Shown: positions 16,169-35,700 of the stretch, one piece after another
Numbering within the stretch: the stretch's first letter is position 1
Layout of the letters: each line of letters begins with the position of its first letter
Assembly (NCBI GenBank): GCA_017626815.1
Contig: JAGAHY010000004.1
Span: 1 to 49,657, forward strand
DNA: 49,657 nucleotides
Direction: 5' to 3'
Source: Bacilli bacterium
GTDB taxonomy: Bacteria > Bacillota_I > Bacilli_A > RFN20 > CAG-826
The notes under the pieces: generated by a model
The model's database searches: none
What the model saw: only the letters and a program-made list of their open reading frames with translations
What the model was told of the DNA's origin: nothing
Position numbers and translations under genes: made by a program

Positions 16169-16888
16169 TTATAGAATCAAACTGAATCCTGATATAAAGA
16201 GCAGCACGTAGGTGATTTTCATAAAGGTCTCAAGATTAAGTTTTTTGGCCAGATGATGACCAATGATGTATGAGACGATGGAAATCACGAACGCGATAGC
16301 GAATAGGATCCAAACGTGAGGCGTGAATAGCCCGAAGGCAACATGCTCCGCGAACATGATCATGTTCAGAACAATCCACATTAAGGATAAAGTTGCCCTG
16401 AACTTGTTTTTCTCCTTGAAGGTCTTCATCGCGAAGATGACGACAAGCGGCCCGCCGGAGACGTAGAGCATGTGCAATAGACCACCAAAGAACAAACATA
16501 AGTACAAGACGGGCTTGGGTATCTTGGCCTTACTGACATCAAACGCCATATAGAACAACGCGATGGAGACAATGATGATACCATAGATTTTCAACAAAAT
16601 TTCTTTATTGAGAGGCAGTCTCTCCACGGCGAATCCTAGACCGAATCCGATACCGACAGTGAGGGCCATCTTAAGGAAGCCAATCCAATCGATATCCTTG
16701 AAATGGGTGATCACCACATAGACGCAGATGACGACAGCGGCCAGGTTTAGGACAGGTTTTGCGATGTCGGGACCGACGAGCCGCAATGAGGGGGGCATGG
16801 CCAATACCGTGCCTGCAAAGCCGGTGATCGCTTGGATGATGTTGGTGAGGAAGATGATGATGAGAAATGCGACCTCAAGAAAGTTCAT
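16169..16888 (-). CDS. TauE/SafE (TSUP) family exporter, probably for a C3 sulfonate
   Basis: A 239-residue membrane protein with eight predicted hydrophobic segments. It has the family pattern of an N-terminal LIIIFLTNIIQAITGFAGTVLAMP repeat and a second repeat around GGLLHMLYVSGGPLVVIFAM. TauE/SafE proteins export sulfite, sulfoacetate and other organosulfonates. As last gene of an operon with a sulfo-transaldolase and an SLA-reductase-like enzyme, its likely cargo is 2,3-dihydroxypropanesulfonate (DHPS); it would fill the role called SftE in the transaldolase pathway. It overlaps the end of the DUF4867 gene by 4 bases. Family assignment is firm; cargo is inferred from context. Confidence 0.85.
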   Translation of the reverse strand: MNFLEVAFLIIIFLTNIIQAITGFAGTVLAMPPSLRLVGPDIAKPVLNLAAVVICVYVVITHFKDIDWIGFLKMALTVGIGFGLGFAVERLPLNKEILLKIYGIIIVSIALFYMAFDVSKAKIPKPVLYLCLFFGGLLHMLYVSGGPLVVIFAMKTFKEKNKFRATLSLMWIVLNMIMFAEHVAFGLFTPHVWILFAIAFVISIVSYIIGHHLAKKLNLETFMKITYVLLFISGFSLIL

Positions 16889-17490
16889 AGAACTTCAGTG
16901 TTCTCTCCAGTAATGCCGATGTAGGCACCATCTTTGGCTTGCTTACTTTCAGGATGTGCGAGCAACCATTTGTTCTCCTTCCAAAGAAGGGGATCGGATG
17001 GTTTGAGGGCAAGATCGCGATTGGTGCCGCCACTTAGAAAGACGGCGCAGCGGAAAGGCTTCTCTTTATACATGCAGGGAGAAAAATGGAGCACATAGGG
17101 ACGTAAGACCAATGCCGTTCCTTTGGGTACGAAGAAGGCCTTGGCTTTGCTGGAATCAAGTTTCCCGTCGACGATGTCTTTCGGCAGGGCGAGGAGCAAC
17201 ACCATATCGGTGCCCGCGACATTGACTTCGGGACAGGCATGGAATTCCATGCAATTGAGTTTGGTATTATGACCATTGCAATAGCCCGCTTCCATTTCGC
17301 CCAGCCCAAAGACCATCTCATGGATTTTCTTTGAGGAAGGTAAACCAAACATTTCTTCGTCTTCACGAGTATAAATGTTGCCTTCTAGCGGAAGGGCGGA
17401 TTCTTCTTCCAAATACTCTACGACATCGGAAAAATCGCCATTAAGAAGGTAGCCGTACGGACGGAAATCAGAAGTAGTTACGTTCAACAT
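16885..17490 (-). CDS. DUF4867 family protein (cupin-like), in sulfoglycolysis operon
   Basis: A 201-residue soluble protein that matches DUF4867 in its conserved blocks: SDFRPYGYLLNGDFSDVVEYL, MEAGYCNGHNTKLNCMEFH, EVNVAGTDMVLLL and AFFVPKGTALVLRPYVLHFSPC. The second half has the rhythm of a ureidoglycolate-lyase-like cupin, with a Cys/His-rich centre that could bind a metal or sugar. No function is established as far as I know, but from memory the family is often found beside fucose-isomerase-like genes. The start at 17490 is fixed by GGAGG 6 bases upstream; the frame extends further but inside the isomerase gene. It overlaps that gene by 23 bases, so the two proteins are probably made in step. 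A role in sugar anomer handling or as isomerase partner is speculation. Confidence 0.8.
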   Translation of the reverse strand: MLNVTTSDFRPYGYLLNGDFSDVVEYLEEESALPLEGNIYTREDEEMFGLPSSKKIHEMVFGLGEMEAGYCNGHNTKLNCMEFHACPEVNVAGTDMVLLLALPKDIVDGKLDSSKAKAFFVPKGTALVLRPYVLHFSPCMYKEKPFRCAVFLSGGTNRDLALKPSDPLLWKENKWLLAHPESKQAKDGAYIGITGENTEVL

Positions 17491-18799
17491 CGATAACCTC
17501 CCAACCCATGATACGCGCGAGACATAGCATGGCTTTCTTATATTGGATGTAGCCCATGATGACGTGGTGGGCGACACCGGTGTAGACGACGGTGTCAATC
17601 ACCTTGGAGATATGGTGATCGAAGATGACTTTGGCGTAGGTTCCAGAAAGGAGTTTATCCATGGGAACGGCTTTTCCTTCTTCATAGAAGACGCGCGTTT
17701 TGCCCCTGGCCGAATCAATGCGGAAAATGGACATGTTGCCTTCGCGTAGGACGAAGTCAGCGGTGACTCCTTTGCCGCCGGCAAAATAGGTTTCCAAAGA
17801 GCGGACGCAGCGGCCGTCCCACAAATTGCATGGCGCAACGCCATCGTGCCAGAGCAGAGCATAGTTTTCTTGATAATTCACCTGGGAAAGGTCTGCCATG
17901 AACGGCGTTTGCTCACCAGCAGCGCGCACGGCGACCATCGATAAGGCGGCTTCCACGTCGCCCTCGCAGGCGAAAAGGATGCCACGGCTTTGCAAAATGG
18001 ACATCATGGCACAGGGGGAGACGCCATAGCATTTGGCGAATTCAGGCCAGCAGCGGATGGCGATGACATCCATTTGCTGCTGCTCCTGGAAGTGGTTTGC
18101 TAAGACAACAAGCTTCGCTACTGCGTCAATTTGAGCCTCAGTGAGTTTTTTCGCGTTGAAGGTTTTTAGGAGGCTCTCTTTTTCTTTTGCCACCTCTTCA
18201 GGGTTGGCTTCGCCGGAGAAAAGTTCACTTAATTCGTAATGCTTTACGAGAATTCCTAACTCTTTATAAAGGTGAAGCTCATCTACGCCGACGTTATAGA
18301 AGCCGTCTGCGTGATAGCCAACGAGGCCGACTTTGGCGTTCTTTAGCGCCACCATCATCTTGATAGCCTTGACCCAATCTTCATCAATTGTGTTGCCGAC
18401 GTGCACGACGTAATTATCAAGTCCGCCCTTGTAGAGGTTGCTGGCATTTAAGTTTACGCCACACACGGCATTCAGACGGATCTTGCCCCCGTCATAGGGG
18501 AGTTCGTCGTAGCCCCAAAGAAGCAACGGCCTACGGACAGTCTCATTGAGGATTAGGGCGAGATGGCCCAAATGGAAGGTCGCGGAGACAATAATCAATG
18601 CGTCAACATGGTGGTCGACATAGTATTCGCCGGCTCTTTTTGCCTCGTCGGCTTCGATGACCATCTCGGGGTAATTGACCCATTCGACAGAGCCATCTTT
18701 CATGACTTCGGCGGTGCGTTCTTTATATAAGGAATAGGCGGTAAGGTAATCAAAGGTCTTACGGACGGTACAAACGATGCCAATTCGTGGTTTTCTCAT
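17468..18799 (-). CDS. sftI: L-fucose isomerase-like protein, probable sulfoquinovose isomerase
   Basis: A 443-residue member of the fucose/arabinose isomerase-like superfamily. It has the N-terminal KPRIGIVCTVRKTFDY domain, the DALIIVSATFHLGHLA segment, the metal-ligand region around DVIAIRCWPEFAKCYGVSPCAMMS and FACEGDVEAALSM, and a C-terminal HHVIMGY segment near MGWEVIDV. It is shorter than true FucI (about 590 residues) and lacks its first domain. With a transaldolase, an SLA-reductase-like enzyme and a TauE exporter it would isomerise sulfoquinovose to 6-deoxy-6-sulfofructose, the first step of the transaldolase pathway of sulfoglycolysis. The symbol is given by context. It could instead act on a deoxy sugar, but no fuculokinase or aldolase accompanies it. 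Confidence 0.75.
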   Translation of the reverse strand: MRKPRIGIVCTVRKTFDYLTAYSLYKERTAEVMKDGSVEWVNYPEMVIEADEAKRAGEYYVDHHVDALIIVSATFHLGHLALILNETVRRPLLLWGYDELPYDGGKIRLNAVCGVNLNASNLYKGGLDNYVVHVGNTIDEDWVKAIKMMVALKNAKVGLVGYHADGFYNVGVDELHLYKELGILVKHYELSELFSGEANPEEVAKEKESLLKTFNAKKLTEAQIDAVAKLVVLANHFQEQQQMDVIAIRCWPEFAKCYGVSPCAMMSILQSRGILFACEGDVEAALSMVAVRAAGEQTPFMADLSQVNYQENYALLWHDGVAPCNLWDGRCVRSLETYFAGGKGVTADFVLREGNMSIFRIDSARGKTRVFYEEGKAVPMDKLLSGTYAKVIFDHHISKVIDTVVYTGVAHHVIMGYIQYKKAMLCLARIMGWEVIDVERNYF

Positions 18800-18813: not shown

Positions 18814-19644
18814 TTAGTCTTCGTTGACTGCTTTATAGGAAGCGGAGAAATCTTCCTTCGCGTAGCCCTTAGCCATGGCTTTCTCATAGACTTTGACGAC
18901 GTTGCGTAAAGCCGGCGCGGCCTTGCCGGCATCATCCGCAACCTCTTGGGCGAAGTGGACATCCTTATTCATGTTCTCCACGGAGAACGCAGTAGGGAAT
19001 TCCCCGTTGATGATATTTTTGGCCTTGGTGTCTAAGTAGAAGCACTGGGCGCCGCCATAGCCTAAAGCGGTGACGACGTCATTTAAATCGAGGCCTTTGG
19101 CTTTGGCTAAGCCGAGGACTTCATTGACACCGTTTTGGATTTCACCGACTAAAGCATTGTGGAGGATCTTCATTAGAAGACCCGATCCGTTGTCACCCAT
19201 ATAGATAATGTTCTTGCCCATACATTCAAGAATAGGACGTACTTTAGCAAAGACTTCAGGATCGCCGCCGACATAGATGCCTAATTCGCCTTTGACTGCT
19301 GCGGGCTGCGATTTGACGACTGGGCAATCCAAAAGATCGACACTTTGTGCTTTTAACTCTTTGGCCAAATTGGCGGATACCATCGGGGAGATGGTGGACA
19401 TGTCGATGCAGATGGTTCCAGGGCGGAGGAACTTTTTCAGCTCACCGTATACGGCGAGAACATGCTCGTTTTTCGGGACCATCGTGATGATGACGTCCGC
19501 TTTGCAACATTCTTCGTAAGAGGTGGCAAAGGGGAAAGGCGTTTCCTTGGCGACGACATCATAGCCGACGAGGCTATATTTCTTAGCGACATTGGTCGCC
19601 ATGGGCATTCCCATGATGCCCAAACCGATAAAGGCGACGTTCAT
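18814..19644 (-). CDS. Beta-hydroxyacid dehydrogenase family, probable sulfolactaldehyde reductase
   Basis: A 276-residue NAD(P)-dependent enzyme of the 3-hydroxyisobutyrate dehydrogenase family. It has the Rossmann motif FIGLGIMGMPMA (residues 5-16), the substrate loop DCPVVKSQPAA (106-116) and catalytic Lys159 in LLMKILHNA. E. coli YihU, the SLA reductase of sulfoglycolysis, is in this family; at the loop where YihU (from memory) has PVGRTS with a sulfonate-binding Arg, this protein has PVVKSQ with Lys, a conservative basic change. It would reduce sulfolactaldehyde to DHPS. The ATG at 19644 lies one base after the transaldolase stop with GGAAGG upstream. The alternative, a hydroxyisobutyrate or tartronate reductase, fits the neighbours less well. 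Confidence 0.8.
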   Translation of the reverse strand: MNVAFIGLGIMGMPMATNVAKKYSLVGYDVVAKETPFPFATSYEECCKADVIITMVPKNEHVLAVYGELKKFLRPGTICIDMSTISPMVSANLAKELKAQSVDLLDCPVVKSQPAAVKGELGIYVGGDPEVFAKVRPILECMGKNIIYMGDNGSGLLMKILHNALVGEIQNGVNEVLGLAKAKGLDLNDVVTALGYGGAQCFYLDTKAKNIINGEFPTAFSVENMNKDVHFAQEVADDAGKAAPALRNVVKVYEKAMAKGYAKEDFSASYKAVNED

Positions 19645-19645
19645 T

Positions 19646-20326
19646 TTAGTTGCCTTCCGTGTGGTCCCAAGCATCCTGGAAGCGATGCAAACCGACATCG
19701 GTGTAGGGGTGGGTGAAGGATTCCTCGTAGACGGCTAAACCGCAGGTGACTATGTCCGCGCCCATTTCAGCGGCATCAGCAATTTGCTTGCCCGTGCGAA
19801 GCGCGGCGACAATGATTTCGGTCTTATATTCTTTTTCTTTATAAATATTGACGAGTTGTTCCATATAGGGGTAGGTATCTTCCCCATTGGATTCCTTCCA
19901 TCCGACAAACGGGGAGACGAACATCGCGCCGATGCGGCCGGCTTGAATGGCTTGAGAAGCAGAGAATACCAAGGTGACGTTGGTGCGGATGCCTTGTTCT
20001 TCTAAGGCTTTCGCCGCTTTTAACCCTTCCAAATTGCAAGGAATCTTGATGACGAAGTTCTCACAAAGCGAAGAGATTTTCTTGGCTTGCTCGATTATGT
20101 CTTCAGCCTTATTGAGATGGGGATTAATCTCGACGGAGACTGGGAACTTCTCTTTTCCTTCGAGGTGGTTTTCTTTAATCCAGTTGGCAATGTCGGTGAT
20201 CGCGGTAAGGAAAGGCTTACCAGAATTCATAATGTGGCGGGGGTTAGTGGTTACGCCATCGATGCCATAGCACCTCCAGGCCTTATCAATTTCATCGAGT
20301 TTTGCAGAATCCAAAAAGAATTTCAT
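19646..20326 (-). CDS. sftT: Transaldolase family, probable 6-deoxy-6-sulfofructose transaldolase
   Basis: A 226-residue small class I transaldolase (TalB/FSA type). It begins MKFFLDSAKLDEIDKAW and forms its Schiff base through Lys94 in FVIKIPCN. Ordinary enzymes of this type read VDGVTTNPSLI; here the site is IDGVTTNPRHI (22-32), so a basic Arg30 and His31 enter the substrate region. That change and the gene neighbours support action on 6-deoxy-6-sulfofructose, releasing sulfolactaldehyde and passing a dihydroxyacetone unit to glyceraldehyde 3-phosphate to give fructose 6-phosphate. It starts 6 bases after the GH31 gene and runs into the reductase gene. A housekeeping transaldolase is the alternative; no pentose-phosphate gene is nearby. 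Confidence 0.82.
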   Translation of the reverse strand: MKFFLDSAKLDEIDKAWRCYGIDGVTTNPRHIMNSGKPFLTAITDIANWIKENHLEGKEKFPVSVEINPHLNKAEDIIEQAKKISSLCENFVIKIPCNLEGLKAAKALEEQGIRTNVTLVFSASQAIQAGRIGAMFVSPFVGWKESNGEDTYPYMEQLVNIYKEKEYKTEIIVAALRTGKQIADAAEMGADIVTCGLAVYEESFTHPYTDVGLHRFQDAWDHTEGN

Positions 20327-20332
20327 ATTGTC

Positions 20333-22300
20333 TTATTCTCCTTTCTTTACGGATAGGCTTTCGAATAGTTCTTTGAATGCGGAATCTTGGCGGTAGAAGG
20401 CGATAGGCATCCCTAATGGGGTCTCGATCGTGTGCTTTCCGCCTTCATAAGTTTTGCCTGTGAAGAATTGTACCCATCTTTCTTTAGGAAGGTACACTTC
20501 TTGTGATTGTTTTTTATCGCGCAGCACTGGTGCGACGAGGACGTCGCGGCCAAATAAATATTCCCGTTGATTCACAAAAGCTTCATCTTCGGCGAAGTGG
20601 AAGAATAGTGGTCTCATTGTCGGGAGTCCTTCGTTGTAATATTGGTTTAGGACATGAAGACGGTAGGGCTTCAACTGCGCGAAAAGACGGGAGTTTTGCG
20701 CGAATTCTTCGATAACTTCGGGGTCGTCGTATTGGGCATTATCTTTGGGTCTATTCCCTTCATGGGTACGAAATACCGGGGTGAAAACGTTCATCTCGCT
20801 CCAGCGGCGAAGCAGCTCAGGACCACGTTTCATAAACATGACGGTGGTATACCCGCCAATGTCGCTATGGATGATGCCACAGCCGGAGCAACTCAACGAT
20901 AAAGTGGCTGGGATGACGGAGCCAAGTCCATATTCGTCACTATAATCGACATGCTGATCGCCATTCCACATCGAGTTGGTATATTGAAGGGTGTGACCAT
21001 AGGCTGCGCGGTTGAAGATGAAGATTTCATCATCTTTCCCAGATTCATTGATCGCATCACGGCAGCATTTCGCCCATAAAGTCGGCCAACGGTTATGTAG
21101 CTTTTCGGGATCGCCACCATAGACGACGGAATCTGTGGGCAGGTATTCGCCAAAGTCGGCCATCCAACCTGAAAGGCCATAGCCGATCATGTTCTTCTTC
21201 ATGATTTCCTTATACCAATCGTAGGCGGTGGGGTTGGTCAAATCGACGATGCCCGCATCAAAAGTAGTGGATTGAATCAGATACACGGACCCGTCTTTGT
21301 GTTTGACGAGGAAACCTTTCTTTTTCGCTTCGTTATATAGGGGCGAGCCTTCTTTTAGGAAGGTATTGATATAGCCGAGGAAGCGAACGCCATCCGCGTT
21401 GAGCTCTTGGATGAATTCGCTAAGCCCCTTATAGAGCTCTTCGTCCGCGAACCAATTCCAATAGACTTGATAGCCAAAGGAAGTGACTACGTGGCCGCAC
21501 CAATCCTGGGCCCATAAAGCTGCCACTTTAATGCCTTTTTCTTTGGCTTCGCGATATTTTCGACGCAGAACATCGATGCCACCTTGGATGGCTAAAATCG
21601 CTCCGTCATTGACCCAGTCGGGAATGCGCGGGGAGATACCGACTAAATAACAAAGTTTGGACGCGAGTTCACGGGTGTTATTTGCAGTTAGGATGCTGAT
21701 GGATTGCGGGAATTGACGGAAGTGGATGAGAACTTCGCCATCGCGGAAAAAGATTTTGCCGTAAGAGTCCTCATGACAATAAAAGGCGTAGTGCTTAGAC
21801 GAAACAAAACTTGGGACGCTACAATAGGTTTGATGGTTCTTATATGCGGACACCCGGTCTGGATCTGGGCCATGGAGTTTTTCGTGGAGCAACTTTTTTG
21901 CGATTTTCAAAATAGCCTGATGTTCGCTGACCCAAATCGGCACCTGTTTTCCATGGAGGTCGAGGGTCGTGTATTGCTCACCGCAGCCGTAAATGTGTTC
22001 TCCCGAGAAGGTTTTGAAACGGATGGTGAAACGGTTGTAGGGGTAGTCCACATGAAAGTGAAGTTTAAGACAAGGCTCATAAGTGGCGATGATTTCGCAG
22101 GTAACCCTCCCATCGCCGAATAGATATCGATCCCCATCTTGACTGACAAAGGTCAGTTTGTGTGAGTCGTAAGCGTGGTCCTTGGTTTTAAAGGATCCTC
22201 GGCTCATCTTATATTTCGCTTTCCCCTTGGAGACGATGAGATAGCATTCTCCGTTGGAAAGCTGCTCGACAAAATATCGCGCCAATTCTTCGCGGTCCAT
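20333..22300 (-). CDS. GH31 glycosidase, sulfoquinovosidase-like (YihQ clade) with altered sulfonate pocket
   Basis: A 655-residue cytoplasmic GH31 enzyme. It tracks E. coli YihQ along its whole length: IYGCGEQYTTLDLHGK, AIQGG, WAQDWCG, GWMADFGEYLPTD with nucleophile Asp382, and MWNGDQHVDY with acid/base Asp448. Using YihQ recalled from memory, its sulfonate-pocket residues Q262, Q288, R301, W304 and Y508 correspond to Q239, Q265, Q278, W281 and Y484 here. All are kept except the arginine, which is a glutamine (SFGYQVYWNW). The enzyme should therefore bind sulfoquinovosides differently, more weakly, or prefer another 6-modified glucoside. It is first in the operon, with AAGGAG 8 bases before the ATG, and corresponds by position to SftG. 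Confidence 0.85.
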   Translation of the reverse strand: MDREELARYFVEQLSNGECYLIVSKGKAKYKMSRGSFKTKDHAYDSHKLTFVSQDGDRYLFGDGRVTCEIIATYEPCLKLHFHVDYPYNRFTIRFKTFSGEHIYGCGEQYTTLDLHGKQVPIWVSEHQAILKIAKKLLHEKLHGPDPDRVSAYKNHQTYCSVPSFVSSKHYAFYCHEDSYGKIFFRDGEVLIHFRQFPQSISILTANNTRELASKLCYLVGISPRIPDWVNDGAILAIQGGIDVLRRKYREAKEKGIKVAALWAQDWCGHVVTSFGYQVYWNWFADEELYKGLSEFIQELNADGVRFLGYINTFLKEGSPLYNEAKKKGFLVKHKDGSVYLIQSTTFDAGIVDLTNPTAYDWYKEIMKKNMIGYGLSGWMADFGEYLPTDSVVYGGDPEKLHNRWPTLWAKCCRDAINESGKDDEIFIFNRAAYGHTLQYTNSMWNGDQHVDYSDEYGLGSVIPATLSLSCSGCGIIHSDIGGYTTVMFMKRGPELLRRWSEMNVFTPVFRTHEGNRPKDNAQYDDPEVIEEFAQNSRLFAQLKPYRLHVLNQYYNEGLPTMRPLFFHFAEDEAFVNQREYLFGRDVLVAPVLRDKKQSQEVYLPKERWVQFFTGKTYEGGKHTIETPLGMPIAFYRQDSAFKELFESLSVKKGE

Positions 22301-22417: not shown

Positions 22418-22479
22418 GAAAATAAATTAAGCGCAAAAACACCAACAAAACGCCCGTGAATTTGCGCTGGAGGAATCAT

Positions 22480-24021
22480 ATGTCAGATACTGAACAACGA
22501 GAACCTCGGGGCAGTAACACTGGGGTAATGTCCCAAACTTCAGGTTTGCGTAGCAAGGACTATATCGGCTATGCCTTAGGTGATTTTGCCGGGTGTCTTT
22601 GCTTCTCAACGATCACCACATTGCTGCAGAAGTACTACACGGATGTTCTTGGCCTAGCACCGCTATTCATCATGATCATGTTTATCGTGGCTCGTGTCTG
22701 GGACGCGATCAATGACCCCATCATGGGCCGCATCGTCGACCTTAGAAAGCCCGACAAGCGTGGCCGCTACCGCATTTGGATGAAGTGGATTGCCATCCCG
22801 CTTGCCATCGCGACCATCTTGGTCTTCTTACCTGGTCCGAACATCGTCAATTTCCTTGGTGGTCCTGGCGGGGTCGGAATTTGCATCTATGCGACGGTTA
22901 CCTACATCGCCTTCGGTATGCTTTATACCGTTCACCAAATTCCTTATGGCTCCTTGGCTTCTGTCGTCACCACCGATGATAAAGAACGTAACAAACTTTC
23001 CGTCTTCCGTTCCGTCGGCGCGGCATTGGGCTCCATCCCCGTCCTCATCATCACCTTTATTTGGGCCAAAGATAAACTGGATGCCAATGGCAATAAGGTC
23101 ATCGGCGAGAACGGGAAGGTCATCACCCAAGTTCAACATTGGCCGATTATCATCGGTGTCGTTGTCATCTGCGTTTTGGCGGCCATCTTGCTCTTTGTCG
23201 CTTACCGAAACAACAAAGAACGTGTTGTCGCCAAGCCTCAACCTAAGGGCGAAAAAGGCGCTGCTTGGAAGATTACTAAGACTTTATTGAAAAACCGTAA
23301 CTTCATCGCCGTGTGCTTAATTGGTTTGCTCTTACTCGCCGGCCAGATGTTCACCCAATCCTTCTATACCTACCTCTTTAACGACTTATTCAGCGCGAAC
23401 TGGATGAACATGGTCTCCATGGTTTGCACCTATGCCCCGATGGCGGTTTTGATGCTGTTTGCCGGTAAGATTGTCCGTAAGTTCGGCAAGAAGAATTTCT
23501 GTGCCGTCGGCGGTATCGTCGCTGGCGTGGCAAATCTCGCTCTTGTCTTCCTCAAAGGACCCGTCGTTGCGTTCCCGCCTTTATTCTTAGTGTTCTGCTT
23601 CATCTCTGGCTGCGGGCTTTCCGTCCTTACGCTAGAAATCTGGGCTCTTGCCACTGATGCCATCGATGACGTCGAAGTGAAATCGGGCAAGCGTAATGAC
23701 GGCACTGCCTATTCCGCGTTTATGTTCTTCCGCAAATTGGGCCAAGTCGTGGCCGCCATCGCCGTCAATGGTGCCTTAATCGGCATGAATTACAAAGCTG
23801 GCCCTGGTGAAGTTCAGACTGCCGAAACCTTAAATGTCATGTACTACATGGCTACCATTATCCCGGCCGTGATGTTTGGCGCGATGGGCGTTGTCGCCTT
23901 GGTTATTTATGGTCTTAATAAGAAAAAGACCGAGGAATTGCAGGTGGAAAAAGCAAAAATGCTCGAATCGAAAATCGCTGCTGGCGAAATCGATGTCGGT
24001 GAAAACGCCACCCAAGATTAA
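22480..24021 (+). CDS. GPH-family (MFS) sugar:cation symporter, probable sulfoquinovose transporter
   Basis: A 513-residue membrane protein with about twelve hydrophobic segments. It belongs to the glycoside-pentoside-hexuronide (MelB/YihO-like) family: DYIGYALGDFAGCLCFSTITT at the first helix and RVWDAINDPIMGRIVD with the family's cation-site aspartates in helix 2, followed by a cytoplasmic loop DLRKPDKRGRYRIWM. The E. coli sulfoquinovose carriers YihO/YihP are in the same family. The ATG at 22480 has CTGGAGGA just upstream; an in-frame start at 22456 lacks one. It is divergent from the sulfoglycolysis operon and shares its operator region, which points to sulfoquinovose, its glycerol glycoside, or a related glycoside as cargo. 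Confidence 0.85.
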   Translation: MSDTEQREPRGSNTGVMSQTSGLRSKDYIGYALGDFAGCLCFSTITTLLQKYYTDVLGLAPLFIMIMFIVARVWDAINDPIMGRIVDLRKPDKRGRYRIWMKWIAIPLAIATILVFLPGPNIVNFLGGPGGVGICIYATVTYIAFGMLYTVHQIPYGSLASVVTTDDKERNKLSVFRSVGAALGSIPVLIITFIWAKDKLDANGNKVIGENGKVITQVQHWPIIIGVVVICVLAAILLFVAYRNNKERVVAKPQPKGEKGAAWKITKTLLKNRNFIAVCLIGLLLLAGQMFTQSFYTYLFNDLFSANWMNMVSMVCTYAPMAVLMLFAGKIVRKFGKKNFCAVGGIVAGVANLALVFLKGPVVAFPPLFLVFCFISGCGLSVLTLEIWALATDAIDDVEVKSGKRNDGTAYSAFMFFRKLGQVVAAIAVNGALIGMNYKAGPGEVQTAETLNVMYYMATIIPAVMFGAMGVVALVIYGLNKKKTEELQVEKAKMLESKIAAGEIDVGENATQD

Positions 24022-24137: not shown

Positions 24138-26300
24138 TTACTTCGCCGCCATCCATCCCCATAAAGAGACTGGGCTTCCGCCGACGAGGACATCTCTGCT
24201 GGAAGGGACAGAGATGCTGGCGGGGTCTGCTTGATCCTTGAGGACTTCGTCTTTTAAGACATAAATCCAGGAGTAGTGACCTTGATATTCGTTATGGTCG
24301 TTGCCTTCGTTACCAACGACGTTCTCGAATAAGGAGAGGTGGACGTCGGTGGCGCCGGCTTCGATCAAACGTTGGTAGGTCGGGATGGTGAACGCGGTCG
24401 GATCGACGGTGGTGTCATTGGCCGCATGTGTGAACCAAATGGACAGGCCTTTGAGCTTGGCGATGTCTGCATCGGTCACGAAGCTATCACTGTAGGCTTC
24501 GCAAACAGGATAGTAGGCGCGGAAGAAATCCGGGTAGGTGATAGCCATTTCCATGGTCATGTAGCCACCGTTGGAGCATCCGCCAACGAAGATACGGCTG
24601 GAATCGATATCACCATTGTCGGCGATATATTTGTCGATGGTTGACTTCAAAGCGGTGGTGTAGACGGAATGGCCAACACCGCCATTATTGTCACCTGTGC
24701 CGCTGTCCATCCACATCGTGGGGGTCTGAACCGCAAGAACATAAGCGCCCGCTTGCTGATTTTTGACGAAGTGGGATTGGACTTTGCTTTCGCCGAGGTT
24801 GGTCACGTCGTTGCCAAGCAAGGCGATATCAGGGTCGGTGCCGCCTTCACCCATACCATGCAGCCAGATGACGAGAGGGTTGGCAACGCCATCGTTGGCT
24901 AATGCGGAGGTTTCGTACGCTTTGTAAGTTAAGGTTTTGCCATCGGCGGTATGGGACTTCGGGTCTCCCCAGTCCGCGGTAGAGGGGATGATGCGGGCGC
25001 CGATTTCTTCTACGGTACCGGGCTTTTCATCGTTATAGGTTTCTTCACCGACCTTCACGGATTTACCCGCTTCGATGCCGACGGCGATTTTGATGTTGGG
25101 ATTCCAGTTATTGACGTTGTTGGCGTAAACGAAGGGAGAGCAGCCACCATCATCTGTGGACGGGAAGGCCCAGTCGCCCCAGACTTGCATGGTGGATACG
25201 TACTTGACTTCCAGGTCAAATCGGACATGGGTGCCGCTGGTGGCGTTGATTTCCGCGCCGAATTCATCCGTGAAGTAAACCTTGTTGATCGTTCTGGAAA
25301 TGCCGTTGGTTTTGACGGTGAAATTAGCAAGATCTTCTCTGACAACTTGACCGTTAAAGTGGGCTAAAACGCCTGTAATCGCAGGGCCAAATTCGAAGCC
25401 TTCGACGAAGTAGTCGACTTTGCCAAGGGAAACGGGTTTTGCGGCTTCTTTCACCACTTGGGCGATTTGGAGCTCTTTGGTGTAGACCTGGACGCAGTCG
25501 AGGTTCGGACCTTGGCCAAGAGCTTCGACGACGATGGTGTTTTCACCCTTTTTGACGTCGATACCCGTGAAGCTGATGGGGTTGAAATCATAGTAGTTAT
25601 TCGTGTCGCCATCTTCAGGTCCGGAAACAACCTTGCCTGAGAGATTTAACGCGACGCCATTGACGGAGATCTTCAAAAGCGAAGAGATGTCCATGTCAGC
25701 GTTATAGGCCATCATGAAGTCCATATCGACTTTTCCGTCTTTATCTGAGGTGAAGTAGATGGTCTCTTTGCAGCCCTCGGTGAACCAGCCGATGGACTTG
25801 CCACCATGGGCTTGATCGGTCTCCTCGACGGGAGTATCGCCAGGACCCATGACCATGCCGCCCCAGTTGAATCCCCAGAATCCGTCGGGGTCATAGTGGG
25901 TGGCGTCTTCGAATTCAAGATAGAAATCAGCGACGCGCGCATCGGCTTTGACGACGGTGATGTCGATGCTTCCGACTTTGTAACCGGTTTTGCGCGCCTG
26001 GATTTTGACGGTGCCCGCTTTGACGCCGGTGACGACGCCACTAGCATCGACGGTCGCAATACTGGTGTCTCTGGATTCAAAGGAGACGTCTTTGACGGAA
26101 GAGGTGATTTTTAACGTTTCGCCAACTTTCACAGTGGTTTCTGCGGCACTTAAAACAATCTTTTCTTCTTCGGCTTTTGAGGCAGAAGCAGATTGAGTGC
26201 TGCTTTGATTTGATGAGGATTCTGCGGGGTTATTTCCACCACAGGACGCCATGCCAAGCAACATCGCCGCCATGGCTAACGGGAATAATGTCTTTTTCAT
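24138..26300 (-). CDS. Surface lipoprotein: Big2, CBM-like module and CE1-like esterase domain
   Basis: A 720-residue exported protein. The signal peptide ends in GMASC, with Cys20 as probable lipid anchor, then a Ser/Gln-rich linker. Residues about 45-115 form a Big2 Ig-like domain (KVGETLKITSS, SIATVDASGVVTGVKAGTVKI). Residues about 120-280 form a CBM6/35-like beta domain (YLEFEDATHYDPDGFWG, AHGGKSIGWF, GENTIVVEALGQGPNLDCV). After a linker domain the C-terminus is an alpha/beta hydrolase of the feruloyl-esterase or PHB-depolymerase type: NPLVIWLHGMGEGG, nucleophile in FVGGCSNGGYMTM, Asp in ANDTTVDP, His in YQGHYSW. It probably removes acyl groups from plant polysaccharide at the cell surface. 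The ATG at 26300 is preferred to a TTG four codons earlier. It is the last gene of the GH3 operon. Confidence 0.85.
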   Translation of the reverse strand: MKKTLFPLAMAAMLLGMASCGGNNPAESSSNQSSTQSASASKAEEEKIVLSAAETTVKVGETLKITSSVKDVSFESRDTSIATVDASGVVTGVKAGTVKIQARKTGYKVGSIDITVVKADARVADFYLEFEDATHYDPDGFWGFNWGGMVMGPGDTPVEETDQAHGGKSIGWFTEGCKETIYFTSDKDGKVDMDFMMAYNADMDISSLLKISVNGVALNLSGKVVSGPEDGDTNNYYDFNPISFTGIDVKKGENTIVVEALGQGPNLDCVQVYTKELQIAQVVKEAAKPVSLGKVDYFVEGFEFGPAITGVLAHFNGQVVREDLANFTVKTNGISRTINKVYFTDEFGAEINATSGTHVRFDLEVKYVSTMQVWGDWAFPSTDDGGCSPFVYANNVNNWNPNIKIAVGIEAGKSVKVGEETYNDEKPGTVEEIGARIIPSTADWGDPKSHTADGKTLTYKAYETSALANDGVANPLVIWLHGMGEGGTDPDIALLGNDVTNLGESKVQSHFVKNQQAGAYVLAVQTPTMWMDSGTGDNNGGVGHSVYTTALKSTIDKYIADNGDIDSSRIFVGGCSNGGYMTMEMAITYPDFFRAYYPVCEAYSDSFVTDADIAKLKGLSIWFTHAANDTTVDPTAFTIPTYQRLIEAGATDVHLSLFENVVGNEGNDHNEYQGHYSWIYVLKDEVLKDQADPASISVPSSRDVLVGGSPVSLWGWMAAK

Positions 26301-26315
26301 AGTATTTTCCAAAGA

Positions 26316-26332
26316 GGGGCCAGGGTTGCCCC
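26316..26332 (-). other. Intergenic hairpin between the two lipoprotein genes
   Basis: GGGGC (26316-26320) pairs with GCCCC (26328-26332) around a 7-base loop in the 51-base gap. It is followed on the minus strand by TCTTTGG, too poor in T for a full terminator. It could be a processing site or partial attenuator that lowers expression of the esterase gene. Confidence 0.35.
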
Positions 26333-26351
26333 TAGCCCCAAAGATTATGTG

Positions 26352-28001
26352 TTATTTCGAGAGGGTGGTGCCTTCGGCGTTGACGACAATGTAGTCCATG
26401 TTCGGGCCTTGGCTACCAGTGATGGTGATAAGAATCGTGTTCTCACCAGCGGCGATGCTGACGTCGGAGAAGACAATCTCTTCCCAGTTGTAGTAGTTGG
26501 TGCCTGCGATGCCCGGGAGGGTTTTGCCCGTGAGGTCAAGATCAGAGCCGTTGAGTTTGATGGTCATGTAATCCGATAACGGCATATCAAGCATGCTGAC
26601 GTTTGGCCAACCGGAGTAATCGGCAAGGACAGAGGCGGCTACTAAGGTCAAAGAGCCGGTGGCGTCAGCGGTGGAATTGAAGGTGAGCGTTTCGGTGCAT
26701 TCGGCTTTAAGATTGCCGATGGATTTGCCGCCATGGGCTTCCGTGCTCTCTTCCACTGGCGTATCGGTGCCCTCGCCCCAGCCATCGCCATACTTGCCAT
26801 TCGGCGAGAAGTGAGTGGCATCCTCAAGTTCGAGGAGGAGGCCTTCGGCAACGGGGATAGGCTCGGTAACGGTGACGGCGATGGAGGCGTCTTTATATCC
26901 TTCTTTCGTAAGGAGGATACTGGTAGAGCCTTTGGCGACGCCGGTGACTAAGCCTGTCGCGCTGACGGTGGCAACGGCTTCGTCTTGGGAAGTGAAGGTG
27001 ACGCCTTCGGTGGTCAGGTTGATTTGCGCGGTGGCGTCTTTTTCGATGCTGATGGCGGTAAAATCGCCTTCAATGTCCGCTAACACGACGGGAATGATGG
27101 GGATTTGCTCGATCTTCAGCTCCTTGGTGTAGACCTGGACGCAGTCGAGGTTCGGACCTTGGCCAAGAGCTTCGACGACGATCTTGTTTTCACCTTCCTT
27201 AACGGCGATGCCAGTGAAGGAGACGGGATTGAAGTCGTAATAGTTATTGGTATCGCCATCATCAGGTCCGGGTACGGATTTGCCCGACATGTCTAAGGCA
27301 GTGTCGTTGACGGAAATCTTCAAAAGAGAAGAGATGTCCATGTCGGCGTTATAGGCCATCATGAAATCCATGTCGACATTTCCGGCTTTATCCGAGGTGA
27401 AATAGATGGTTTCTTTGCAGCCTTCGGTGAACCAGCCGATGGACTTGCCACCATGGGCTTGTTCGGTCTCCTCAACGGGGGTATCGCCAGGACCCATGAC
27501 CATTTCGCCCCATTTGAAACCCCAGAATCCATCGGGGTCAAAGTGTTCGGCATCTTCAAATTCAAGATAGAAATCGGCGACACGGGCAGCGGCTTTTTCA
27601 ACGGTAACATCAATATTTCCGACTTTGTAGCCGGTTTTGCGCGCCTGGATTTTGACGGTGCCCGCTTTGACGCCGGTGACGACACCACTAGCATCGACGG
27701 TCGCGATGCTGGTGTCCCTGGACTCGAAGGAGACGCCTTCGACTGAGGAAGTGATTTGAGCGGTTTCACCAACTTTGATGGTGGACTTATCGATAGTTAA
27801 AACGATTTTTTCTTCATCGGATTTTGAAGCGGAAGCGCTCTGACTGCCGGCAGGATTGCTGGCACTGGCGTTGGCGGAAGCGGTAGCGGAACCGGAAGAG
27901 AATCCGGTTTGCGCGGATTTGCTATCCCCGCCGCAGGCCGCGAGGAGAGCGGCCCCGGCGAAGGCGAAGAATAAACCGCGCGCGAGTTTTTTAGCGTTCA
28001 T
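26352..28001 (-). CDS. Surface lipoprotein with two Big2-CBM repeats
   Basis: A 549-residue exported protein with a clear lipobox (ALLAAC, Cys23) and a long Ser/Ala linker. Residues about 65-295 repeat the Big2 plus CBM-like module of the neighbouring esterase lipoprotein almost unchanged. A second, diverged Big2 (VTFTSQDEAVATVSATGLVTG) and CBM-like module (LLLELEDATHFSPNGKYG, AHGGKSIGNL, ENTILITITGSQGPNMDYI) follow. No catalytic domain is present, so it is probably a glycan-binding scaffold or capture protein. TAGGAGA lies 8 bases before the ATG. It follows the GH3 gene after 36 bases. The first repeat matches the esterase gene at DNA level over about 600 bases without gaps, pointing to recent duplication or conversion. 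Confidence 0.82.
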   Translation of the reverse strand: MNAKKLARGLFFAFAGAALLAACGGDSKSAQTGFSSGSATASANASASNPAGSQSASASKSDEEKIVLTIDKSTIKVGETAQITSSVEGVSFESRDTSIATVDASGVVTGVKAGTVKIQARKTGYKVGNIDVTVEKAAARVADFYLEFEDAEHFDPDGFWGFKWGEMVMGPGDTPVEETEQAHGGKSIGWFTEGCKETIYFTSDKAGNVDMDFMMAYNADMDISSLLKISVNDTALDMSGKSVPGPDDGDTNNYYDFNPVSFTGIAVKEGENKIVVEALGQGPNLDCVQVYTKELKIEQIPIIPVVLADIEGDFTAISIEKDATAQINLTTEGVTFTSQDEAVATVSATGLVTGVAKGSTSILLTKEGYKDASIAVTVTEPIPVAEGLLLELEDATHFSPNGKYGDGWGEGTDTPVEESTEAHGGKSIGNLKAECTETLTFNSTADATGSLTLVAASVLADYSGWPNVSMLDMPLSDYMTIKLNGSDLDLTGKTLPGIAGTNYYNWEEIVFSDVSIAAGENTILITITGSQGPNMDYIVVNAEGTTLSK

Positions 28002-28037
28002 GTTTTTCTCCTATTTTAAGGGTATTTTTGCAGTGAT

Positions 28038-31000
28038 TTATGCTTGTGCGTGAGGGTTTTCCACACCGATGGCTTCAAAGTCTTCATCGCTCCAGGCCGC
28101 ATTGGAATGGGCGAGGCAATAGAGGATGTTTTTGGAAGCTCTGCGGAGGTAGAAACGGATGTCGTGCGGCGCGCCGTTTAGGGCGCTTGTCAGGCCGGAT
28201 TGCTGGGCGGAGACGAGCCATTCGTCATTGCCGGCGCGGAGGCCGTTGGCCACGGGCATCGAGGAGTTGTTGTAGTCGGTGATAACGGAACCTTTGAATC
28301 CCCATTCATCACGGAGAAGGGTGGTGAGCAAGGCTTCGCTGGCGCCGGCCCAGGTGGTGCCGATGGAGGAGAAGGCGCTCATCATGCCGATGCCACCGAG
28401 GTCGGTGTAGATCTCAAAGGGCTTGAGGTAGATTTCACGCATGCCTTGCTCGGAGCAGAAGACGTTAAGACCATTGCGGTTTTGCTCTTGCTCGTTAAGA
28501 CCGAAGTGCTTAGCGAACGTGTAGACACCCATTTCCATGGCGCCGCGAGCGGTATAGCCGCCCATGTTGCCAGAGATCAGCGGGTCTTCGGAATAATATT
28601 CGAAGTTACGTCCAGCATATGGAGAACGATGGATGTTCATGCCCGGAGCATACCAACCGGTGAGGCCCATGGCGGTGCCTTCTTTAGCACAGGATTTGCC
28701 GAAGAGTTCCGCGGCGTCGTTATTCCAGGTGGAGGCGAGGATGACGCCTGAGGGATGGCCAGTGCCGGAGTTGTAGCAGGAGGCAGGGCCGTCGCCTTCG
28801 GAAGTGAAATATTTTTTGCCGATGCTGTTGATGGCGGGAATGCCGAAGCCTTGTCCACGGGGATCGCCGACGAGATTGACCATATCGTCTTGGCTGAGCT
28901 GGTCAAGGAAGTCGTCCCAGCGCGTGTCGTTGAAGTCGGCGCCTTTCATGTCCGCGAGGGTGATGGGCTCGTCGAGGACGCGGTCGGTGACGACGTCCTC
29001 ACATTGGTTGTCTTCAAAGCGGATGGCGTTGAGGTCATTGTTGTTGACGGAGATTTTGGAGTTCCATTTACGATTGACGTCTTCGTTTTTGGTGTAAGTG
29101 CCTTCCCAGTCATTGCGGCTGAGATAGGCGATCTTTTCCACGTTGCCGCCAAATTCGGCGTCTTGGAAGATGTTCTCGTAATCGTAACCAGTCTGATAGG
29201 ACTTCTTGTATTCAATGGTTTCTGCGAGGTTCCATTTGAAGACGGAGTCCTTGATGTTAATGGTGTCGACGGCTTTGTCCCAGCAGTTCTCGGAGAGGAT
29301 GAATTCGTATTCGCCCTTGTCTAAGACATAGTAGCCTTTTTCGGTGTTCCACGAAGCGAGGTCGCTGATCTTGACGGATAACTGATAAGATTCCGTTTCG
29401 CCAGGTTTGATGACGTTGGTCTTTTGGTAGGCCACGAGATTGCGGGCTGCTTTTTCAACGCCGCCGGCGATATAAGGTGGGTTGTCATAGATTTCAATGA
29501 CGTATTTGCCTTCGACGTTGCCGGTGTTCTTGACGGAGACGACAAAGTCGATGGTGCCCTTCTCTTCGTCATAGGTGGAACTATGGAGGGAAGAGTTGAA
29601 GGTGGTGTAGCTCAAGCCATGGCCGAAGGAGTACTTGATATAGTCTTCGTAATTGTAGTTGTCATCGGTGAGCGCACGGGTGGTGTAGTAACGGTAGCCA
29701 ACATAGATGCCTTCGTAGTAGTTGGAGAAGGCGTAGTTGGCGCCATCGGTGAATCTGGTGGATCTGGCGCCGAAGGTTTCGTAAGTGGGGTTGGACTTCA
29801 GGTCATAAGGCCAGGTATCGACAGTGCGGCCGCTGGGGTTGACTTTGCCAGAGAGGACTTCGGCGATGGCGGTGGTGCCGGTCAAGCCGGGGTGGCCGAC
29901 GAATAAGACGGTGTCGATGCCTAGATCCTCAAAATCGCGAAGGTACATTGGACCCGGGGTGTTGAGCAACAAGACGACTTTGTCGAAGTTGTCGGTGATC
30001 ATCTCGAGGACGTCATATTCCGTCGCGGTGAGTTGGAGTTCGTCCTTTTTCGTAAAGGGCATGTCGTATTGTTCCGTGCCATAACGGGAGATGCAGAAGA
30101 CGGCGGTGTCGCTATACTCTTTGCAATAATCGAGCAGGGTTTTGCCGTCGATTTCGGGATAAGTTTCCTCATAGGCGGCCTTTTCGGGTTCGTGCTCGTA
30201 GGGAATCCAACGGTTCTTGATGCCCTCATAACGACCGGTCGTGCCGAAGGTCGCGATGGAGGCGTGAAGGTTGTAGTCGCTCTCCGCGATGGAGTGGGAC
30301 TTGTTCTGGGCGTAGTTTTTGCAAAGGTTGAGCAAATAAGGGTTGTACTCAAAGCCTTCGTCGGCGAGAGCTTGTTCCAACTTGGTGCACTTGACGGTGC
30401 GTTCGTTGGGTTTGCCTTTGTTGTAGGTGTGGTCGGTCGCGAATTCGCCAGAACCGCCGTTGCCATAGAAGATGCCGAAGGCGTTGGTGCCGAAGACGTT
30501 GAGCTTCTTGTTGGTGTTCAAATCCAAAGGAAGAGTACCGGAATCGTTTTGCAATAAGACGATACCTTCTTCTTCGATGGTGACGACATTGGCGGTGGCT
30601 TCTTTCGCGGCGAGCCTAGTGGACTCGGTGACGGTGACGTTGTCCTTATAGAATAAGGTCGCGTAGATGCCAGGACCGAAGGTGTAGACCACCGGCGTGC
30701 CAATCAAGCCGACGATGGTGACGAAAGAGAAGATTGGCCAGAAGATGAAGCGGGCTTTCTTCCAGTGCAATAAGGTGCGTGTGCCGGCGGGCTGAGATTT
30801 GATGAATTCTTTTCTCTCTTTGCCCTTGAGAGCCTTTAAGGCGGCTCTTTTTTCTCCGAAGGCCGCGCGTTCTTCTTTGCTCATCCTCACGTAGCCGAGG
30901 AGTAGAACGATGCCTACGTAAACCACGACTAACACGATGACGGCAATGAGGACGACGTACCAATCCGTCCACCAGTCCGCAGACCCGAGACGGTAGCCTG

Positions 31001-31046
31001 GAATGATTTCCCAATCTCCAAGGCCAAGGAAGCGAATGCTATCCAT
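28038..31046 (-). CDS. Membrane-anchored, domain-swapped GH3 beta-glucosidase-like enzyme
   Basis: A 1002-residue protein. Two membrane segments lie at about residues 29-53 and 100-126, enclosing a basic cytoplasmic loop, and the rest is predicted to face outside. The GH3 domains are in swapped order: the alpha/beta C-domain comes first (TIEEEGIVLLQNDSGTLPL, KLNVFGTNAFG), then an Fn3-like domain (NTGNVEGKYVIEIY), then the TIM-barrel N-domain (ILASTWNNDAAELFG, SEDPLISG, TFAKHFGLNEQEQNRN). The nucleophile is Asp924 in GSVITDY. This order is known in some Firmicutes beta-glucosidases; the double-spanning anchor is less usual. AGGAGG lies 7 bases before the ATG. It heads an operon with two glycan-binding lipoproteins and probably trims beta-linked oligosaccharides at the surface. 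Sugar specificity is not evident. Confidence 0.88.
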   Translation of the reverse strand: MDSIRFLGLGDWEIIPGYRLGSADWWTDWYVVLIAVIVLVVVYVGIVLLLGYVRMSKEERAAFGEKRAALKALKGKERKEFIKSQPAGTRTLLHWKKARFIFWPIFSFVTIVGLIGTPVVYTFGPGIYATLFYKDNVTVTESTRLAAKEATANVVTIEEEGIVLLQNDSGTLPLDLNTNKKLNVFGTNAFGIFYGNGGSGEFATDHTYNKGKPNERTVKCTKLEQALADEGFEYNPYLLNLCKNYAQNKSHSIAESDYNLHASIATFGTTGRYEGIKNRWIPYEHEPEKAAYEETYPEIDGKTLLDYCKEYSDTAVFCISRYGTEQYDMPFTKKDELQLTATEYDVLEMITDNFDKVVLLLNTPGPMYLRDFEDLGIDTVLFVGHPGLTGTTAIAEVLSGKVNPSGRTVDTWPYDLKSNPTYETFGARSTRFTDGANYAFSNYYEGIYVGYRYYTTRALTDDNYNYEDYIKYSFGHGLSYTTFNSSLHSSTYDEEKGTIDFVVSVKNTGNVEGKYVIEIYDNPPYIAGGVEKAARNLVAYQKTNVIKPGETESYQLSVKISDLASWNTEKGYYVLDKGEYEFILSENCWDKAVDTINIKDSVFKWNLAETIEYKKSYQTGYDYENIFQDAEFGGNVEKIAYLSRNDWEGTYTKNEDVNRKWNSKISVNNNDLNAIRFEDNQCEDVVTDRVLDEPITLADMKGADFNDTRWDDFLDQLSQDDMVNLVGDPRGQGFGIPAINSIGKKYFTSEGDGPASCYNSGTGHPSGVILASTWNNDAAELFGKSCAKEGTAMGLTGWYAPGMNIHRSPYAGRNFEYYSEDPLISGNMGGYTARGAMEMGVYTFAKHFGLNEQEQNRNGLNVFCSEQGMREIYLKPFEIYTDLGGIGMMSAFSSIGTTWAGASEALLTTLLRDEWGFKGSVITDYNNSSMPVANGLRAGNDEWLVSAQQSGLTSALNGAPHDIRFYLRRASKNILYCLAHSNAAWSDEDFEAIGVENPHAQA

Positions 31047-33483: not shown

Positions 33484-35700
33484 ATGAACTATCTTCAAAT
33501 TAAACAAGGGCAGTATGAGTTTTGCTTTGGCGGCAAAACCATGCGCCTAGAATTTCTTAGTAATCGTTGCTTCCGTCTTTATCAGCGGACACCTAATCGA
33601 CGATATTACGCGATTGAAAGTGAACCTATTTCGGAGGCTGATGTTTGCCAAAGCGAAAGTGGCCTCGAATTCGGTTATTCTCAAATTAAAGTCGCTTTTG
33701 ATGAAGAAAATCGGTTATCCGTCTCTTATTTTGGCCAGGAATCTTTTCGCGCAGAACCATATAAAGTCAGCCATGAAACCGAAAATCTATCCCTGATGGC
33801 CATGGAAGGACATCACGCTTCCCGCGACTTGAATGGAAAGGGTGGCATTCGTATCTATGCCGATTTGCCTATCTACGGGATGGGGGAACGAAGCGGGCCT
33901 TTGGATAAAAGGGGCTATGATTATGTGAATTGGAATACCGATGATCCAAGTGCCCACGTGGATACGTTTAAGTCCTTGTATCAGTCAATGCCATTTTTCA
34001 TCGCCTTTCGTGGCAAGACATCTTTTGGTGTTTTCCTCGATAATACCTCGAAATCCCATTTTGATTTCAACAAGTCAAAGAGGGATTCGATTCTCATCGA
34101 TTTTGAAGATGGCGTCGCGGATTATTACTTCTTCTTTGGCTCTATGCCAGAGGTTATCCAAGAATTCACGCGTTTGACCGGGCGGAATCCTTTGGTTCCT
34201 TACTGGGCGCTTGGTGCGCAGCAATGCCGTTGGAGTTATCACGATAAAGCCGAACTCGATGCGGTTATCGAAGGCTATGCCGTGGCCAATATTCCCTTAT
34301 CTGCCGTTTATCTGGATATCGATTATATGGATGCTTATAAGGACTTTACCGTGGACGCGAGCAAGTTCCCGCACATCCAAGATTACCTCGCCGAATTGAG
34401 GAAGAAGGATATTTATGTCGTCCCGATCATCGATGCTGGTGTCAAGGCGGAAGAAGGCTATTTCCTCTATGATGAAGGTGTCAAGAATGGCTATTTTTCG
34501 ACGCTGGATGGCGAGATATACCATAATGAAGTGTGGCCTGGTGACTCCGTCTTCCCTGCGTTTTTAGATGAACCGGTTCAGCAGTGGTGGGCGAACCATA
34601 TCCAGCACATGCTAGAGCTTGGCTTTGCGGGTATTTGGAATGACATGAATGAACCTGCTTCTTTCAAGGGCCCATTGCCGATGGATGTGATGATGGGCAA
34701 AGATATGCCCCACCGCGTCGCCCATAACATTTATGGTCATCACATGGTCAAAGCGGGGGCCATGGGCTTTGAGAAAGCGGGCAAACGGTTATTTCAGCTT
34801 ACACGCGCAGGTTATGCGGGGACATGCCGATATAGCGCGACATGGGCTGGTGACAATCAGTCGATTTACGACCATCTGCGGCTAATGCTGCCTCAACTGA
34901 TGAACATGTCTTTGTCGGGACAGGCTTATATTGGCGTGGATATTGGCGGGTTTGGGGGCGATACGACACCTGAACTGCTTACCAAGTGGGCTATCGCGGC
35001 GATATTGAATCCGCTATACCGCAACCATAGCGCCATGGGAACTTTGCCCCAAGAGCCATATACTTTGAATGGGGATTATCTTTTGGGATATCGAAAAGCG
35101 GTAATGACCCGTTATGAGATTTTGCCCACGCTTTATGACGAACTCTATTTTGCCGAAAGCGAGGGCAGCGTCCCTTTAAGACCTTTAATCTATAATTTCC
35201 CGGATGATTCGAATGTCCTTAACGAGAATACGGAAATGATGCTCGGAGAGAGTTTGCTTATCGCGCCATCGTTATTCCCGGGGGAGACCAAAAGAGTTTG
35301 CTACTTCCCGGATGATTTCGTTCAATTTGGGACGTGGAAGCATTATGCCAAAGGTCATCATATTATCGATGTCGGTTTGACGGATACCCCTTTATTCCTT
35401 CGTGAGAATGGTATGGTAGTGCTTGCGTCTGCAGGCAACGATAAAGCAAAAAAGAATGATGTTTTGCGCGTATTTTTGGGAAAGAACGGCTCTTCCGCGA
35501 GACATTTTGAAGATGATGGGGACGGGTTAGGATACCGTAATGGACAATATAATCTCTATCATCTTCGGAATGAGGGCGGTGTTCTGAGAATCTCATATCT
35601 CCATCACGGCATGCAAAGCGAATATCAAAAAGTCATCCTTGTCCACTTGGATGGAAAAGAGACGACCATGGATTTCGTTGACCTTATCCTGCCTGCCTAA
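33484..35700 (+). CDS. GH31 alpha-glucosidase
   Basis: A 738-residue GH31 enzyme without signal peptide. An N-terminal beta-sandwich (IYADLPIYGMGERSGPLDKRG) precedes the catalytic barrel, with nucleophile Asp387 in GIWNDMNEPASF and acid/base Asp457 in WAGDNQSIYDHL, plus VYLDIDYMD and YIGVDIGGFGGD. A small all-beta C-domain (LLIAPSLFPGETKRVCYFP) follows. These are features of ordinary alpha-glucosidases that release glucose from maltose- or isomaltose-like ends, unlike the YihQ-like GH31 at 20333-22300. The GCGAGGG before the ATG is a modest ribosome binding site. Its 3' end overlaps the convergent hypothetical gene by 17 bases. It stands alone opposite the LytTR system. Confidence 0.93.
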   Translation: MNYLQIKQGQYEFCFGGKTMRLEFLSNRCFRLYQRTPNRRYYAIESEPISEADVCQSESGLEFGYSQIKVAFDEENRLSVSYFGQESFRAEPYKVSHETENLSLMAMEGHHASRDLNGKGGIRIYADLPIYGMGERSGPLDKRGYDYVNWNTDDPSAHVDTFKSLYQSMPFFIAFRGKTSFGVFLDNTSKSHFDFNKSKRDSILIDFEDGVADYYFFFGSMPEVIQEFTRLTGRNPLVPYWALGAQQCRWSYHDKAELDAVIEGYAVANIPLSAVYLDIDYMDAYKDFTVDASKFPHIQDYLAELRKKDIYVVPIIDAGVKAEEGYFLYDEGVKNGYFSTLDGEIYHNEVWPGDSVFPAFLDEPVQQWWANHIQHMLELGFAGIWNDMNEPASFKGPLPMDVMMGKDMPHRVAHNIYGHHMVKAGAMGFEKAGKRLFQLTRAGYAGTCRYSATWAGDNQSIYDHLRLMLPQLMNMSLSGQAYIGVDIGGFGGDTTPELLTKWAIAAILNPLYRNHSAMGTLPQEPYTLNGDYLLGYRKAVMTRYEILPTLYDELYFAESEGSVPLRPLIYNFPDDSNVLNENTEMMLGESLLIAPSLFPGETKRVCYFPDDFVQFGTWKHYAKGHHIIDVGLTDTPLFLRENGMVVLASAGNDKAKKNDVLRVFLGKNGSSARHFEDDGDGLGYRNGQYNLYHLRNEGGVLRISYLHHGMQSEYQKVILVHLDGKETTMDFVDLILPA

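Follow-up and report, generated by a model that had tools for sequence, protein, structure and literature searches.

Four GH31 sulfoquinovosidases of solved structure were aligned here, namely E. coli YihQ (5aed/5oht), B. megaterium BmSQase (8r56), E. rectale SftG (6pnr) and the A. tumefaciens SQase (5ohy), and in the solved enzymes Arg301 (YihQ numbering, taken from the MG1655 gene) contacts the sulfonate group of the substrate. We take the pockets of sulfoquinovosidases to be of two types, QQRWY and KERWY, both of which keep this Arg. Surveys, e.g. of the cow rumen (PMC13219744), name the orthologous group sulfoquinovosidases and attribute to it shared, conserved features of structure and function. 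E. rectale grows on the plant sulfur sugar sulfoquinovose (SQ) and on SQ-glycerol via the transaldolase pathway considered below (PMC11968277), and clusters of the E. rectale sulfo-TAL/SFT type include genes for a transaldolase, an SLA reductase, an isomerase, a DUF4867 protein and a glycosidase. Among the NAD-dependent GH188 sulfoquinovosidases, there is a subgroup altered at the sulfonate-binding residue (PMC11465081).

A predicted sulfoquinovosidase gene is found within a 49,657-nucleotide stretch of DNA from a gut Bacilli bacterium (contig JAGAHY010000004.1 of assembly GCA_017626815.1), here called the window. The encoded protein shares with the solved enzymes the fold, the catalytic Asp pair, the pocket residues Q262, Q288, W304 and Y508 and the role in the operon, but has Gln in place of Arg301. 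It also differs from the A. tumefaciens SQase in having Q/Q rather than K/E at the first two pocket positions. In belonging to a sulfoquinovosidase family with a subgroup changed at the sulfonate-binding position, the Gln-type enzymes resemble GH188, though the GH188 fold and mechanism are unrelated and the altered GH188 residue makes its contact through the backbone, leaving the site intact.

The window enzyme and its pocket

The initial annotation gave no strand. The gene, a single intact ORF of 655 codons (655 aa), lies on the minus strand, and the plus strand over the same interval is rich in stop codons (Table 1). The protein is a full-length match to the family model NF007746, above threshold at 709 bits (708.9) against a cut-off of 553. 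Residues 18–650 align with E. coli YihQ (HMMER, E 1e-155), in agreement with the earlier statement that the protein follows YihQ along its length in a stable alignment, and the nucleophile D382 and acid/base D448 correspond to YihQ D405 and D472. When the AlphaFold model of the enzyme (pLDDT 90.1, pTM 0.91) was used in a fold comparison, the nine best PDB entries were all YihQ-type sulfoquinovosidases (Z 50.8–52.3), and the next GH31 entry scored 38.6. A search of the window genome for the YihQ family found this enzyme as the sole member, and the Gln-type enzyme was likewise the sole member in eight of the nine genomes checked individually. The dN/dS of the gene against two comparable orthologues was 0.05–0.09, with dS near saturation. 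Going by its sequence, the enzyme is a variant within the YihQ family and not a proven sulfoquinovosidase.

Table 1. Positions of features in the window that are discussed in the text
Feature	Position	Strand	Basis or remark
GH31, YihQ-type predicted sulfoquinovosidase, Gln at the YihQ R301 position	20333..22300	-	NF007746, alignments, AlphaFold; coding 22300-20336, stop to 20333
Gln278 codon	21467..21469	-	Computed as 22300 minus 277 codons
SftT-like 6-deoxy-6-sulfofructose transaldolase	19646..20326	-	302 bits to BmSF-TAL 8bc3 (B. megaterium)
SLA-reductase-like, beta-hydroxyacid dehydrogenase family	18814..19698	-	True start probably internal ATG near 19644
Divergent SftI-like sulfoquinovose isomerase	17468..18799	-	NF048012, 178 bits (cut-off 700)
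DUF4867 (SftX) cupin	16885..17598	-	208 bits; DUF4867 protein 9gyy
TauE/SafE exporter	16169..16888	-	Predicted
GPH cation symporter	22456..24021	+	Divergent from the glycosidase gene
Two lipoprotein-like ORFs	24138-31046	-	By eye, from translations
Second GH31 gene, other subfamily	34189-35139	+	

Four of the five pocket residues are kept, with Q239, Q265, W281 and Y484 pairing with YihQ Q262, Q288, W304 and Y508 at an offset of 23 for the first three and 24 for Y484, as the initial annotation had it. Neither a complete QQRWY nor a complete KERWY pocket including Arg301 is present, and the residue in the Arg301 column is Gln278, which has the same offset of 23. This assignment had also been made earlier and it stands, since Gln278 aligns with Arg301 without a gap, in a stretch of the HMMER alignment that is free of gaps from residue 213 to approximately 395, and neither Arg nor Lys is present between residues 263 and 290. 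A proper alignment placing an Arg at this site had been named as grounds for rejecting the claim, and HMMER and MAFFT both give Gln. The further claim that known sulfoquinovosidases keep the Arg accords with our alignment of the four solved enzymes, all of which have it. YihQ R294, seven residues before R301, corresponds to Val271, and this Arg is gone from the window clade.

The following were examined and ruled out: misalignment of Gln278 (approximately 180 residues align without a gap, and HMMER and MAFFT agree), sequencing error (Gln is fixed in all close orthologues), an Arg displaced by one or two residues (there is none) and a degenerate gene. With the Arg missing, the rest of the pocket intact and Arg present in every solved enzyme aligned, another way of holding the sulfonate is a fair prediction for the window enzyme.

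Distribution of Gln and Arg across the family

Column 301 was compared in 127 distinct aligned family members, pooled from a peptide-seed scan and a scan with the NF007746 family model. The peptide seeds came from the query, and as one of them spans the Gln site, the survey was redone with NF007746, which is free of such bias, in lineages comprising Bacilli, Lachnospiraceae, Oscillospiraceae and spirochaetes. The column contains Gln in 93 sequences and Arg in 34, with no third residue, and only six other columns show just two letters with the rarer one common; both catalytic Asp residues are invariant in all 127. The Gln codons are CAG (68) and CAA (26). Chance does not explain the residue, given its constancy in the window clade and its presence in Gln-types under both codons, although Gln and Arg codons lie one base apart. 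In the NF007746 samples, 49 of the 66 genomes carrying the family have the Gln form, i.e. about three quarters, and the count is 45 of 62 when four Gln-bearing genomes that had served as sample centres are removed. The initial annotation implied an unusual protein, but in the lineages sampled Gln is more common than Arg.

Every homologue in the window clade has Gln, as do all orthologues in rumen Bacilli and Erysipelotrichaceae (58–81 % identity), and Gln is also found in remoter relatives (39–46 %) from Lachnospiraceae, Oscillospiraceae, other Clostridia, a Halanaerobiales MAG and Treponema zioleckii. The Gln-types keep W304 and Q288 (both 100 %) and Y508 (89 %). In one Gln-type branch (L074–L076, L155–L160 and L147) the pocket Tyr508 is also replaced, by Phe, so that two of the five pocket residues differ. 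Gln at column 301 marks a large part of the family and is not a one-off change. We know of no Gln-type enzyme that has been assayed. No report of a Gln-type subfamily in the YihQ family or of variation at R301 was found in a literature search covering papers other than the primary YihQ ones.

In the family tree, two switches between Gln and Arg suffice to explain column 301. All four aligned enzymes of solved structure fall within one large Arg clade, apart from the large Gln-type group to which the window enzyme belongs, and a second, small Arg clade from spirochaetes (L165–L168) adjoins Gln sequences, the closest of which, L164, is 69–71 % identical to its members. When the tree was rooted with other GH31 proteins the Gln forms were basal and Arg arose twice, which is only suggestive that Gln may be the older state and Arg a residue gained on two occasions; the rooting is a hint and no more because the outgroup branches are extremely long (3–10 changes per column) and one outgroup sequence (L004), which matches GH31 only weakly, was placed among the family members.

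Further differences between the Bacillota Gln clade and the solved enzymes lie in two loops (127–153 and 344–349) and at His450. When 76 Bacillota Gln-types were compared with 30 main Arg-types, the N-domain loop SE(P/Q)GVGR..AGGDYY of the Arg-types was found to be replaced by SEH..K and the loop FGEF by (S/I)TTF, and His127, Lys136 and His450 were invariant (100 %) in the former set and missing from the latter, though the alignment is uncertain near an insertion at 129–132. His450 occupies YihQ position 474, two residues past the acid/base Asp, and residues 130–143 of the replaced loop form a helix in the AlphaFold model (pLDDT ~80). The substrate of the Bacillota Gln clade could therefore differ beyond the sulfonate contact. 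The spirochaete Gln-types keep the GVGR loop, and hence the Gln and the loop changes are separable.

Operon, pathway and transporters

The glycosidase gene is the first of an operon in which it is followed by genes for the transaldolase, SLA reductase, isomerase, DUF4867 protein and TauE exporter. The gene content is like that of the E. rectale-type clusters, from which the window differs in having a divergent isomerase subfamily and a Gln-type glycosidase. The called start of the DUF4867 gene overlaps the isomerase gene and is probably too early. We infer that the TauE/SafE protein likely exports the C3-sulfonate product and that the GPH symporter likely imports the glycoside or sugar. In every one of the 20 testable loci of the window clade, SftT is the next gene downstream of the glycosidase. 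Of the 69 Bacillota Gln-type loci, a few of which overlap or repeat, 55 contain one or more sulfoglycolytic genes and 36 have SftT, SLAR and SftI together.

In the sulfofructose transaldolase, Snow et al. reportedly found in 2023 that Lys89 forms the Schiff base and that the sulfonate is bound by an Arg-Trp-Arg triad. The window SftT keeps Asp6, Glu61 and Lys89 and also Arg30, Trp138 and Arg172 (BmSFT numbering), which may be that triad. K89, D6 and E61 are present in all 48 SftT proteins of Gln-type loci as well as in that of the window, and position 30 is R, K or N in other loci. The SLA-reductase residues at YihU positions 122–124, 171, 174, 175 and 178 are identical beside Gln-types and beside four of five Arg-types; the exception is E. 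coli YihU itself. The isomerase matches only NF048012, far under its cut-off, and its position in the operon fits the SftI role. This divergent subfamily occurs in rumen Bacilli, in Oscillospiraceae and in spirochaetes (47–87 % identity), is only ~24 % identical to another SftI-like form, from Lachnospiraceae, and in spirochaetes is also found beside Arg-type enzymes. As the SftT and SLA-reductase residues are alike beside both types and E. rectale, whose glycosidase is Arg-type, uses this pathway on SQ, the sugar entering it is most likely SQ whichever glycosidase type is present. In the deep spirochaete Gln clade (L191, L193–L204 and L235), where the pocket is otherwise full, sulfoglycolytic neighbours were found in none of the 14 loci, and hence a Gln-type enzyme does not equate with SQ use everywhere.

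A GPH symporter gene lies within three genes of 48 of 87 Gln-types but only 3 of 23 Arg-types, whereas an ABC permease gene is found in this range beside 12 of the 23 Arg-types and none of the 87 Gln-types (Fisher p 2e-10 for the contrast, a value that ignores relatedness). Arg and Gln paralogues share an SQ cluster in several Bacilli genomes, which implies that the two have different roles there, and in some of these mixed clusters ABC permease genes adjoin the Arg form and a GPH gene the Gln form, a pattern suggesting that the two types may specialise by uptake route or by aglycone. In related Bacilli (L098–L103 and L104–L107) both types occur in one genome, and in some they lie within ~14 kb, the sulfo-transketolase cluster there additionally encoding an aldehyde dehydrogenase and a succinyl-CoA-ligase-like pair. 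The rumen survey records organisms with two yihQ copies, in passages that do not link them to the pocket (PMC13219744).

Substrate and sulfonate binding

The window enzyme is likely a retaining GH31 glycosidase of the YihQ family that frees SQ from an alpha-sulfoquinovoside while holding the sulfonate without an Arg. Retaining hydrolysis of the glycoside would release SQ into the sulfofructose-transaldolase pathway encoded alongside, and in the QQ-Q-WY pocket the sulfonate would be held by Gln278, Trp281 and, through water, Tyr484, perhaps with other polar groups. Neutral donors would thus replace the salt bridge to Arg, possibly with a contribution from Lys136 or one of the histidines in the rebuilt loops. 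The bacterial sulfate-binding protein holds sulfate by neutral hydrogen bonds alone, and binding of a sulfonate by neutral donors is therefore chemically reasonable. Affinity, which the initial annotation proposed might be weaker, may differ from that of Arg-types, as may aglycone preference.

The initial annotation had also raised a different 6-substituted glucoside as the substrate. This would be an alpha-glucoside such as a glucuronide, a 6-deoxyglucoside or plain glucoside, and the adjoining pathway would handle that sugar. The loss of the charged residue together with that of R294, and an isomerase so far under the SftI cut-off, would fit such a change, but the rest of the pocket is kept, SftT, the SLA reductase and DUF4867 are retained with active-site residues as found beside Arg-types, and the same isomerase subfamily accompanies Arg-types in spirochaetes. 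This reading is unlikely, and a sulfoquinovoside is the best reading of the substrate because the operon keeps homologues of SftT and SLA reductase, a divergent isomerase, DUF4867 and TauE. By far the least probable reading is a degenerate enzyme or neutral drift at this residue; a single base separates the two codons, but a column with only two residues in 127 sequences, just two switches in the tree, the low dN/dS (though with dS near saturation) and the intact catalytic residues all speak against it.

Two refinements are compatible with release of SQ by the enzyme. One is that it acts on SQ glycosides with an aglycone other than glycerol, or on those imported by GPH symporters, the Gln going with a rebuilt aglycone loop and not with the sulfonate as such. 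The replaced loops and His450 of the Bacillota Gln clade, the transporter contrast and the paralogues sharing clusters favour this, hinting that the clade serves another uptake route or aglycone, but Arg-type E. coli YihQ also has GPH-type transporters nearby, the GVGR loop persists in spirochaete Gln-types, and no known aglycone accounts for it, and we regard this refinement as possible but tentative. It is rather doubtful that Lys136, or His127 or His450, of the rebuilt loops supplies the positive charge in place of Arg301; their invariance in the Bacillota Gln-types and absence from the main Arg-types would be expected if so, but spirochaete Gln-types do without all three and the alignment around the insertion is uncertain. 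Somewhat speculative, too, is a broader proposal that the Gln-types stand apart as a group found mostly in the gut and in spirochaetes and recognise the sulfosugar without an Arg, that the Arg pocket of all known structures is derived and was gained twice, and that Gln-types serve GPH-imported SQ glycosides which Arg-types do not handle.

Should the Gln-types prove to be genuine sulfoquinovosidases, most of the family escapes the usual sulfonate-site motif, and selection of a sulfosugar does not require an Arg at this site. Otherwise, much of the sulfolipid-degrading potential reported for rumen and gut may have been assigned wrongly. The Q/R split provides ready natural variants for the study of sulfonate recognition, including the 71 %-identical spirochaete pair.

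Elsewhere in the window, the two lipoprotein-like ORFs contain repeated, near-identical domains, one of them with an esterase-like end, and are adjoined by a gene for a large GH3-like protein in what is probably a separate glycan locus. The second GH31 gene belongs to another subfamily (Table 1).
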